Positions 5,993-32,531 of a stretch of 36,598 bases of DNA are shown piece after piece; the stretch's first letter is position 1, and each line of letters begins with the position of its first letter. Below the pieces are notes generated by a model. That model was not told the DNA's origin. It saw nothing but the letters and a program-made list of their open reading frames with translations, and made no database searches. A program made the translations under genes and the position numbers. This DNA is from Elusimicrobiota bacterium (GTDB lineage: Bacteria; Elusimicrobiota; Elusimicrobia; UBA1565), in assembly GCA_016218495.1 (NCBI GenBank), contig JACRDU010000035.1, forward strand, positions 1 to 36,598, written 5' to 3'.

Positions 5993-7339
5993 TTAGATCC
6001 CCTCGGCCTCGCGCTTGAACACCTCCGCGAGGCGGCTCGAAAGCGACCGGGTCAGCTTCTGGTCCTTGGCTTCGACCAGGATGCGCAAGAGCGGCTCGGT
6101 CCCCGAATATCTTACGAAAACGCGGCCCGAATCCCTCAGCGACCGCTGCGCCCTCTCCAGCTCGGACTGGAAGCCGGCCAGGTCCTCCAGCGGCACCCGA
6201 CGGGCGACCCGGACGTTGGTCAGGACCTGCGGGAAGACCTTGTAGAGGCGCCGCACCGCGGAGAGCTTGCCGCCCCGGACCCGCCAGGCGGCCAAGGTCT
6301 GCAGGGCGGTCAGCAGGCCGTCGCCGGTCGGGGCGAAGCGCCGGAACACGACATGCCCGGAATTCTCGCCGCCCAAGGCCAGGTCGTAGCGGTCCAGGGC
6401 CTCTGTGACGTTGCGGTCGCCGACCGGCACCTGGACCGAGGAGATGCCGCGCCCGCGCAGGAACTCCACCAGCCCTAGGTTCGACATCACGGTCACGACG
6501 ACGCCGTCGCCGCGCAGCAGGCCTTCGTCCTTGAGATGGATGGCCGAGAGCGCGATCAGGGAGTCGCCGTCGAGCAGGCGGCCAACCTCGTCGGAGAGCA
6601 CGCAGCGGTCCGCGTCGCCGTCGACGGCGATGCCGCAGTCGGCCCCGCGCCGGACGACCTCGCGGCGCAGCGCCCCGGTCTCCATCGCGCCGCAGGCCCG
6701 GTTGATGTTGCCGCCGTCGGGCCGGCAGCCGATGACCGCCACCTCGCAGCCCAGGCTGCGCAGCAGGTCCGGGCCGATGCGCGACGCCGCGCCGTTGGCC
6801 CCGTCGAAGACGACCTTGAGGCCCGAGAGGTCCTCGTGCGGAGGGACGGTGGAGCGGACGAAGTCCGAGTATTCGCGCGCCCCCGCCGGGTCCTTCTCGG
6901 CGCGCGCGCCCCGCGGCCCGGGGTCGGCCGTCCGGGGCAGACGCTTCTCGAGCTCCGCTTCGAACTCCGGGGTCGCCTTGCGCCCGCAGTCCGAGAAGAA
7001 CTTTATGCCGTTGAACTCCGGGGGGTTGTGGCTGGCCGAGACCACGACGCCGCACAGGGCCCCGCGCCGGGGAGTCAGGTAGGAGACGGCCGGAGTCGGG
7101 ACGACCCCCAGGTCGACGGTCCGGACCCCGGCCGCGGCGAAGCCGTCGGTCAGCGCCCGGGCGAGGCCGGGGCCGGAGGAGCGGGTATCGCGTCCGAGCA
7201 ATACGAAGGGCGTGCGCCGCTCGCGGCGGGACAAGAGCAGGGTTCCGGCCAACCGGGCGAGCCGCCGCACGGTGGGGGCCGTCAGCGGCTCGGTCCCCGG
7301 GATGCCGCGCACCCCGTCGGTGCCGAAGAGGTGGCTCAC
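5993..7339 (-). CDS. glmM: Phosphoglucosamine mutase
   Basis: A 448-residue alpha-D-phosphohexomutase that converts glucosamine-6-phosphate from GlmS to glucosamine-1-phosphate. It starts LFGTDGVRG (sugar-binding signature), has the phosphoserine loop VVSASHNPPEFNGIKFF near residue 100, the metal-binding DGDADRC near 245, the GENSGH sugar loop and the C-terminal phosphate loop RYSGTEPLLRI. Length and motif order are normal. The start is a GTG at 7339 that overlaps the folP stop as GTGA, so translation is likely coupled. Confidence 0.97.
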   Translation of the reverse strand: MSHLFGTDGVRGIPGTEPLTAPTVRRLARLAGTLLLSRRERRTPFVLLGRDTRSSGPGLARALTDGFAAAGVRTVDLGVVPTPAVSYLTPRRGALCGVVVSASHNPPEFNGIKFFSDCGRKATPEFEAELEKRLPRTADPGPRGARAEKDPAGAREYSDFVRSTVPPHEDLSGLKVVFDGANGAASRIGPDLLRSLGCEVAVIGCRPDGGNINRACGAMETGALRREVVRRGADCGIAVDGDADRCVLSDEVGRLLDGDSLIALSAIHLKDEGLLRGDGVVVTVMSNLGLVEFLRGRGISSVQVPVGDRNVTEALDRYDLALGGENSGHVVFRRFAPTGDGLLTALQTLAAWRVRGGKLSAVRRLYKVFPQVLTNVRVARRVPLEDLAGFQSELERAQRSLRDSGRVFVRYSGTEPLLRILVEAKDQKLTRSLSSRLAEVFKREAEGI

Positions 7340-28571: not shown

Positions 28572-28718
28572 AGGCAGGGCCATGATAACGCAGGTCGCCC
28601 TTATTAAGGATAGGTCACCGGGGACTGCGGCCAGGGGATTATGGCCCAGGCCCCTTTAGGCCCTTTGCCGACGGAAGGCCTATGCGCGCAAGACGTCGAT
28701 CCCTCAAAATCGCACTCA

Positions 28719-28747
28719 TTGACGGGACCCCATCCAGGTGGTAAACT
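28719..28747 (+). promoter_or_regulatory. Good plus-strand promoter with no protein gene behind it
   Basis: TTGACG (28719-28724), a 17-nt spacer and TAAACT (28742-28747) match sigma-70 at 5/6 and 4/6. The predicted start (about 28754) is the first base of the long foldable segment that follows. No open frame of note starts behind it on this strand. Confidence 0.55.
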
Positions 28748-28753
28748 GTGGTT

Positions 28754-28841
28754 GTAGCCCGACCAAGCCGAATTCCGAGGCTTCTGCCTCGGCCGTAGTC
28801 CTACCTGGGACTGCTAGGCTGACGTTGGGCTATCTTGTTTT
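28754..28841 (+). ncRNA. Candidate structured small RNA, three-way junction
   Basis: Read as RNA, this folds by hand into an outer stem of 9 pairs (28755-28763 with 28824-28832, one G-U), continued by 4 pairs (28766-28769 with 28817-28820). It encloses two hairpins: 7 pairs closed by UUCU (28775-28781 with 28786-28792) and 7 pairs with a 6-nt loop (28795-28801 with 28808-28814, one G-U). A U-rich run, ending UUGUUUU, follows the outer stem like an intrinsic terminator. The promoter's predicted start is the first base of the stem. The last 28 nt or so are antisense to the 3' end of the DUF3800 gene. It is not a tRNA and matches no RNA family I recognise. Confidence 0.5.
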
Positions 28842-29521
28842 CTGGGCGGCTTCCAGAAATTCACCCGGAACTTCTCCTTTGTGTAGGCATTCCTCTCCCG
28901 GAAGTCCGAGATGCCCAGGCGGGCCTTTATGTGGTCTATGACCGTGCGCTTGGGGTAGCCCTGGACGCCGTTCAGGTCGCCATTCACGCAGCCGGCCAAC
29001 AGGTCAGCGACCCGCAGGAGGTTGTGGTTCTCCGAAACGACCTCTTGGAGGTCAACGACATTCTGGACGTTCTTCTTAAGGAACGAGTCGAATTCATCGG
29101 GCCGGGCTTTGTCCTTTCTATCTAGAAGGAGGACCTTCGGCAAAGGCACCTCCTCTGTGGTCGTGTGGAAGTTGATGGCGCTCTTATAGATGACGTTATA
29201 GGACATCTCCTCCGTAGACATGAATTTCAGATTGTCGCGGAAGCGGGTATGGTCGAAGATTCCCCCGGGGACGACGGTGCACCGGAACTCGGCGTCGGTC
29301 GCGCCGAAGTACCAGTCCACGACGGCTTTAGCGCAGTCTACCTTCAGCCGACTCAACTCCGAGTAGTGAAGCTCCTTGTGGGTGAACTTGTGCTCCAGCT
29401 TCAAACGCTGGAGCTGGCGCTCGTATTCGGAACGACTCCGGCTTGAGACAAATAGCAACCCAATCAGGAAATGTCGTCCGCCGACCTCCCCGCTCTCGTC
29501 TCCGTAGATATGAAGGGCCAT
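28814..29521 (-). CDS. DUF3800 protein, putative RNase H-like nuclease
   Basis: A 235-residue DUF3800 protein: the opening IYGDESGE supplies the first acidic pair, a second cluster is LLLDRKDKARPDEFD, and the C-terminal NHNLLRVADLLAGCVNGDL holds the conserved Asp of this family. DUF3800 proteins are predicted RNase H-fold nucleases, common on phages and defence or mobile DNA, with little experimental work. I start at the ATG at 29521, where the conserved domain begins and GGGAG lies 9 nt upstream. The gene sits 13 nt after the barrel gene but is clearly less GC-rich than it, so it looks acquired. Its stop codon lies within the foldable segment described as a candidate RNA. Confidence 0.85.
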   Translation of the reverse strand: MALHIYGDESGEVGGRHFLIGLLFVSSRSRSEYERQLQRLKLEHKFTHKELHYSELSRLKVDCAKAVVDWYFGATDAEFRCTVVPGGIFDHTRFRDNLKFMSTEEMSYNVIYKSAINFHTTTEEVPLPKVLLLDRKDKARPDEFDSFLKKNVQNVVDLQEVVSENHNLLRVADLLAGCVNGDLNGVQGYPKRTVIDHIKARLGISDFRERNAYTKEKFRVNFWKPPRKQDSPTSA

Positions 29522-29534
29522 GCGCGTTGCTCCC

Positions 29535-31487: not shown

Positions 31488-32531
31488 TCATGCTTGTTTT
31501 TTCAACAGATACCTGAGCTGGTTGGTGGCACCCTCCGAAACCAATAGGCCCGCTGCCACAAGCTCTCTGAGCTCCCTCTGCAGCGTACGGCGGGTCACCC
31601 CTTTGCACATCCCCTCGATCTCATGGATCGTAAGGCTGCCCTTTTCCATAACATGCTGGAAAACCTTGCGCTGCCTGGCGTTGAGGGGATGCCGGCGCGT
31701 CAACAGGTCTGCCTTGATAATCCGCTCGCCATGCTCCTGGACCTCCCGCATCTGGGTGGCCAAGCCGTCCGTGAAGTATTCAAGCCAGCCGGTCATGTCC
31801 ATGCCCTTAGCCCGGTCGCCTTGGATGGCCTTGTAGAAAGAGGTCCGGTCACGGTCGTAGTATCCGCTGATTGTGAAAAGGCGCTTGAAGTCATAGCCCT
31901 TGCGGTAGAGGCAGAGGGTGGAGAGCAGACGCGAGGTCCGGCCGTTCCCGTCATCAAAGGGGTGGATGTGGACGAGCTGGAATTGCGCGATGCCCGCCTC
32001 CAGCACCGGATTTACGCCATGCTCCGATTGCAGCCACTTCACCAGGCCCCCCATCAGGCCGGGGACCTCGACCGGGGGCGGCGGGGTGTAGATGACCTGC
32101 TTGGTCTTGGAATTGACCACGAAGTTCTGGCCTCTGCGATACTGGCCGGGAGAGGCCTTGTCGCCGCGCACCCCCTTGACGAGGCGCTTGTGGATTTCGC
32201 GGACCAGCGCCTCGGTGATGGGCTCGCCGTTATCGAGGTATTCAGTCACGAGGTAGAACGCCTCGCGGTAATTGAGCAGTTCACGGGCATCGTCGGGGTC
32301 GGCTCCCGGGACCTTCTTCCCGGCGAGGAGCCTTTCGGACTCCTCGAGGGTCAGATGCGTGCCCTCGATGTGGGTGGTATGGTGGGCTTCCAGGACCAAG
32401 GCCCGGTTCTGCATCTCGGAGATCCAGTCCTCGGAGAGCTTGGCCGCTTCCAGGAATCCGCGCGCACGCTCGATTTTCGTCAGAGCGGCGGCGAGGGCGT
32501 TCGTAATCGCGAACTTCGGGGAGAAGCTCAT
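31488..32531 (-). CDS. Fic-family protein with class II inhibitory motif and C-terminal winged helix
   Basis: 347 residues. The N-terminal Fic_N part carries the auto-inhibitory motif TTHIEG ([S/T]xxxE[G/N]) near residue 52. The catalytic motif is [12 protein letters not shown] near residue 193, with all key residues (His, Asp, Asn, Arg) intact, so AMPylation activity is expected. The flap region is [19 protein letters not shown]. The C-terminal 80 residues form a winged helix ([31 protein letters not shown]), suggesting DNA binding and autoregulation. The ATG at 32531 overlaps the stop of a 32-codon stub of the ABC ATPase gene (ATGA). It lies inside an ABC exporter operon, flanked by 62-bp repeats, and is an evident insertion. 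The target is unknown. Confidence 0.92.

Follow-up and report, generated by a model that had tools for sequence, protein, structure and literature searches.

Here, we describe a small structured RNA on the plus strand of the window (the whole analyzed stretch of 36,598 nucleotides) that is almost certainly a real DUF3800-associated sRNA, located at 28754-28841. Together with the convergent DUF3800 gene, the RNA makes up a mobile module of two parts. Computation established the conservation at the RNA level, the structure, strand, promoter, convergent pairing with the gene, match of RNA class to protein clade, and mobility; we infer that the RNA binds its cognate protein and inhibits it, with a role in defense or maintenance. 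This complete statement, a mobile module of sRNA and DUF3800 gene in which the RNA binds and controls the protein, is plausible, and we regard it as about evenly balanced. The coordinates of all features are collected in Table 1.

Table 1. Elements of the RNA locus and its partner gene; positions refer to the window.
Feature	Position	Strand	Remarks
-35 box TTGACG	28719-28724	+	position kept in 7 homologues (TTGACG in four, TTGAAA, TGGACA, TTCGCG)
-10 box TAAACT, spacer 17	28742-28747	+	6 bases ahead of first paired RNA base; 8-11 of 12 consensus bases in 7 of 7
Small RNA, three-way junction with U-rich 3' end	28754-28841	+	predicted length about 80-88 nt; 7 homologues; covariance model R1 92-107 bits
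Closing stem, 10 pairs	28754-28763 with 28824-28833	+	97% of cells paired
Inner stem, 4 pairs	28766-28769 with 28817-28820	+	invariant
Hairpin 1, 7 pairs, loop variable	28775-28792	+	paired in 100% of cells; both sides changed in 1 pair
Hairpin 2, 8 pairs, loop variable	28795-28814	+	3 pairs changed on both sides
U-rich tail CTTGTTTT	28834-28841	+	likely terminator jointly with closing stem; 3 tail columns invariant T in 7
DUF3800 gene, 235 aa, convergent with RNA	28814-29521	-	Pfam PF12686, 5.3e-8; start 29521 fixed by homologues
RNA and DUF3800 module	28713-29523		shared with G020 at 73% identity; sits between 390-aa and 1015-aa genes

Folding of positions 28719-28841 gave a z-score of -4.3 and none of 200 shuffled sequences folded as well. 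The T run behind the fold is found on the plus strand only, and a sequence search identified no second copy of the element in its own genome. Among 57 related genomes, a DNA search located it in six more (G005, G007, G020, G028, G033 and G046). When 341 genomes of the phylum were searched with the covariance model, the same seven loci and no others were returned. The mean identity among these seven Elusimicrobia copies is 83%, while the synonymous sites of the DUF3800 gene are near or beyond saturation. When 84,980 species genomes were scanned for the exact pattern, the matches were Elusimicrobia contigs, one further contig and two chance matches in coding sequence. The latter two, in Salibaculum and Roseovarius (L041, L042), were rejected; they lie inside a conserved protein-coding gene of 125-126 aa and their RNA-model score is at chance level. 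Among viral contigs we found no homologue of the RNA, nor of the close DUF3800 relatives.

The fold of 29 pairs is maintained throughout the seven sequences. Standard pairs make up 98% of the 203 pair cells (169 Watson-Crick and 30 G-U, with 1 A-C), and this fraction falls to 22-49% when the partners are slid by 1-3 columns as a control. RNAalifold proposed the same structure unprompted. Four of the 29 pairs changed on both sides in a compensatory manner, a modest covariation (n = 7), and the two basal stems are supported mainly by invariant pairs and G-U changes. Because a G-U pair becomes an A-C mismatch when the opposite strand is read, selection acted on the plus strand RNA.

A sigma-70 promoter lies at the same place in all seven homologues and matches 8-11 of the 12 consensus bases; by chance, scores of at least 8 of 12 occur with a frequency of 0.9% and scores of at least 10 of 12 with 0.03%. 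In the window, TTGACG-17-TAAACT at 28719-28747 is the sole such site within 2.5 kb, with 0.2 expected in shuffled sequences. The copy in G005 has its -10 box 7 bases ahead of the first paired base, with a spacer of 16 as scored. Across the seven loci, identity amounts to 86% in the first 28 bases of the RNA, 29% in the spacer and 23% in the DNA further upstream, which is about background. Because spacer and upstream DNA have diverged while the boxes stay in place, the promoter is kept by selection, beyond recent common descent. These data bear out the preliminary description, which had seen here an autonomous small RNA. Its proposed promoter is conserved at a fixed distance in 7 of 7 homologues while the spacer has diverged, and the RNA opens, as it had suggested, directly behind it, 7 bases past the last -10 base. 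The pairing was held rather than broken in the homologues, the U-rich run does trail the closing stem, and the architecture was recognized correctly; only the lengths given for the closing stem (9 pairs) and one of the two hairpins (7 pairs) were slightly short.

The partner gene encodes a protein in which the DUF3800 profile residues D8, E9, E50, D134 and D173 are invariant in comparison with 9 relatives. Codon-position differences and a dN far below dS reveal purifying selection. The protein matches the PADLOC candidate defense family PDC-M04A (3.8e-24), and its acidic residues are as expected for an RNase H-like fold. An AlphaFold model from 4 sequences reached a mean pLDDT of 39 without a usable fold, and a search for solved structures with related sequence returned none. 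Since the predicted structure was not usable, we took the nuclease fold from the literature, where an RNase H-like fold has been reported for DUF3800 (PMC10910872). Toxicity of a DUF3800 protein is not documented in the literature surveyed. Positions 28814-28841 of the RNA lie opposite the last 28 bases of the gene, in agreement with the antisense arrangement described earlier; this overlap with the mRNA end varies among the homologues and is probably not the point.

Close homologues of the DUF3800 gene (64-77% identity) are present in G005, G020 and G033, each convergent with the RNA. Hence in 4 of 4 intact close genes the RNA is convergent at the stop codon, with an overlap of 6-27 bases, and no close homologue of the gene was found without the RNA. 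The other three of the seven RNA loci carry a C-terminal remnant of the gene, one of them weak. In G007 the last 26-34 residues of DUF3800 remain beside the RNA, in G046 about 15 and in G028 about 8 (the latter two being short, weak matches). RNA and promoter persist at all three remnant loci, somewhat eroded in G046, so that loss of the gene before the RNA counts three loci versus none. The flanking DNA is unrelated among the seven loci, except for one distant stretch common to G020 and G046. In the same-genus genome G001 the 390-aa and 1015-aa genes lie about 120 bp apart with nothing between them. Because the flanks differ and this gap is empty, the module must have arrived or left as a unit.

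Several further features were observed around these loci. The promoters in G028 and G007 are good although an intact gene is missing there. Judged from sequence reading only, the genes next to the RNA and gene remnant in G007 (L028, RNA at 6914) resemble a methylase of type I restriction-modification systems and an ATPase. In G002, of the same genus, the gap behind the 390-aa gene (L175:2360-2900) is occupied by a different small gene, with palindromes such as GTTCCATTTCGTGCCAGGCACGAAATGGAAC on its flanks. Outside the module, a GC-rich intergenic stretch of the window (28643-28680) has short matches of about 79% in G002 and G004. A Fic protein at 31488-32531 (PADLOC SoFic, 1.6e-66) is a candidate defense gene about 2 kb from the module.

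The arrangement at this locus recurs with other DUF3800 genes. Of the 341 genomes of the phylum, 66 contain PF12686, and an Rfam scan of 40 loci from the PF12686 search, a few of which were included twice, identified DUF3800-V, DUF3800-IX and one DUF3800-VI. Every copy of DUF3800-V and DUF3800-IX is convergent with its gene, from 9 bases past the stop codon to 23 bases overlapping. This full range is seen in DUF3800-V, with a gap of 3-9 bases in nearly all loci, and DUF3800-IX overlaps the stop codon by 2-17 bases. In most DUF3800-V copies TTGACA-17-TATAAT or a near variant precedes the Rfam model by 4-8 bases, and the DUF3800-V promoters match 10-12 of the 12 consensus bases. When the RNA class is mapped onto a tree of 57 DUF3800 proteins, 5 changes suffice, the fewest possible, versus a mean of 23.4 after shuffling, and the DUF3800 clade of the window together with its RNA forms one branch. 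A given RNA class accompanies a single DUF3800 clade. Since the types of RNA correspond one to one to those of the protein, the two probably work together. Among DUF3800 genes without a listed RNA, 17 of 32 have a convergent 3' promoter compared to 5 of 72 control genes (p = 4e-7), and from this enrichment it follows that further unlisted RNA classes probably exist. A search for DUF3800-I gave no match in 10 relatives, in one alphaproteobacterium or in 398 genomes of that phylum.

Individual loci of the survey deserve mention. A second unlisted DUF3800 RNA lies antisense and directly 3' of three genes (L202, about 1310-1425; L211, the same locus as L215; L223:1870-1975). It is 83-88% conserved, has a closing stem GCCGTCTC...GAGACGGC with hairpins, TAGAAT or TATAAT ahead and a T run behind, and gave no Rfam match in the loci scanned. 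At L170:2036-2230 the DUF3800 gene that the tree places nearest to the clade of the window is accompanied by a convergent promoter, TTGACA-18-TAGAAT, and by a strong antisense fold (z = -4.0) closed by GCCTAGG...CCTGGGC and followed by a T run. Mannheimia phage PHL101 (L171:3300-3400) and Escherichia phage Chuche (L179:2330-2425) contain behind DUF3800 what by eye seems to be the same H-type pseudoknot, with compensatory changes in both stems and no Rfam match. L214 (1235-5374) contains a tandem array of four DUF3800 plus DUF3800-V modules, of which the first three are spaced by about 1 kb; in the last one the gene is truncated to 114 aa and the RNA remains. RlfA of phage P1 (L178:1501-2205) is a DUF3800 protein with rlfB directly after it and no listed RNA nearby.

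How the two halves of the module might act together can be outlined as follows. Transcription of the RNA would start from its own sigma-70 promoter and stop at the closing stem and the U-run. The RNA would then fold and bind the cognate RNase H-like DUF3800 protein and, most likely, keep this nuclease inactive, in the manner of an RNA antitoxin or inhibitory cofactor. The nuclease might be freed by phage attack or when the module is lost, which would make this a small mobile defense or addiction module. Binding and restraint of its own DUF3800 protein by the RNA are suggested by the clade matching, the fixed convergence, the strong separate promoter, the mobility and the loss of the gene before the RNA. 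However, it is equally conceivable that the RNA activates or guides the protein, or serves as its substrate. The main rival holds that it is the activating or guiding part of a DUF3800 ribonucleoprotein, whose nuclease depends on the RNA for finding or cutting its target. Such a role would fit the RNase H-like motif and the presence of one RNA class per protein clade, as would the TPR-DUF3800 proteins carried by some Cas12a2 loci (PMC10910872). Yet nearly all of the RNA is paired, with two short hairpin loops and no free variable stretch that might serve as guide, and the RNA persists where the gene is gone, so we consider this role possible but doubtful.

Inhibitory binding also has to be weighed against readings in which no RNA acts on the protein itself. 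As in convergent type I toxin-antitoxin pairs, the RNA might overlap the 3' end of the DUF3800 mRNA and lower its level in cis. The convergent overlap at 28814-28841 exists, and relative to the stop codon all placements fall between -27 and +9 bases. The overlap ranges, however, from 27 bases to none, with the gap of 3-9 bases in nearly all DUF3800-V loci, and because it is variable or absent an antisense action is less likely. Moreover, compensatory changes keep a fold that antisense pairing alone would not require, and the partner is a 235-aa protein rather than a short peptide; altogether we think cis-antisense control unlikely. Quite improbable is a trans-acting sRNA with its own targets for which the DUF3800 gene is merely the carrier. 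Such an sRNA would explain the RNA loci with good promoter and no intact gene (G028, G007), but 4 of the 7 RNAs have an intact DUF3800 gene next to them and the other 3 a remnant (weak in G028), and other RNA classes hold the same spot next to other DUF3800 clades. The structure might finally be a recombination or insertion end, attC-like or from a transposon, and not an RNA, given that the module moves as a unit and that the hairpin ends resemble attC boxes on the minus strand. Against this stand the single copy in the genome, the promoter conserved in place, the bias for G-U over A-C that marks selection on the plus strand RNA, and the known sRNA families that occupy the same place. We rejected it as the main reading on account of promoter, strand bias and copy number, and regard it as very improbable.

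RNA motifs adjacent to DUF3800 sit in Rfam without a known function, and the locus described here adds a class with testable promoter, fold and strand. The survey leads to a simple rule: the RNA is convergent, at the stop codon, and of one class per protein clade. Placement and clade matching point to a direct partnership of RNA and protein and make the function of DUF3800 RNAs directly testable. Three things go beyond the existing list, namely this rule of placement, the one-to-one correspondence between RNA classes and protein clades, and the evidence that further classes are still unlisted; in our judgement the general rule itself is new. More tentatively, and with some doubt, DUF3800 may be a broad RNase H-like family that generally works with clade-specific structured RNAs from a convergent 3' promoter, many classes of which are unlisted. 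Together these could constitute a new type of RNA-controlled nuclease or toxin-antitoxin-like defense.

Comparison with known systems helps to place the module. Integron attC sites are repeated and occur with an array or integrase; a second copy of the element was not found by sequence, and strand bias and promoter favor an RNA. Convergent antisense type I toxin-antitoxin pairs have conserved complementarity to the toxin mRNA; here the overlap with the coding end is variable or absent, although the RNA may be complementary to a 3' UTR. In type III toxin-antitoxin systems an RNA antitoxin binds a nuclease. The proposed logic of the window module is similar, with a structured RNA and a nuclease-like partner in a compact mobile unit. 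In contrast to the tandem RNA repeats upstream of a type III toxin gene, there is here a single RNA without tandem repeats, convergent at the 3' end, and the protein family is unrelated. Much closer are the DUF3800 motifs. DUF3800-V (RF02964), from the same phylum, is likewise convergent and immediately 3' of its gene, with TTGACA-17-TATAAT a few bases upstream, closing ends GAAGAGCG...CGCTCTTC and a terminal U-run. It differs in its 96 model positions and its DUF3800 clade, with no sequence or covariance match either way. DUF3800-IX (RF02968) is also convergent, overlaps the stop codon, has a U-run behind and a -10 box ahead (TATACT in 3 of 4, TATAGT in the fourth), but has 67 positions, another consensus, another DUF3800 clade and weaker -35 boxes. 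DUF3800-I, DUF3800-VI and the other listed DUF3800 motifs are structured RNAs tied to DUF3800 genes that do not match the window RNA at E <= 10; the single DUF3800-VI match is typed as cis-regulatory and lies upstream on the same strand. Model R1, run on the DUF3800-V, DUF3800-IX and other DUF3800 loci, gave no credible match, and an Rfam search with the element gave none at the gathering score or at E <= 10. Thus, the earlier statement that no known family is recognized stands, but not the novelty of a stand-alone RNA. The RNA adjoins DUF3800, is convergent at the stop codon, and has its own promoter and a conserved structure, as DUF3800-associated sRNAs do. It is an unlisted, new class of these sRNAs and not a new kind of RNA.
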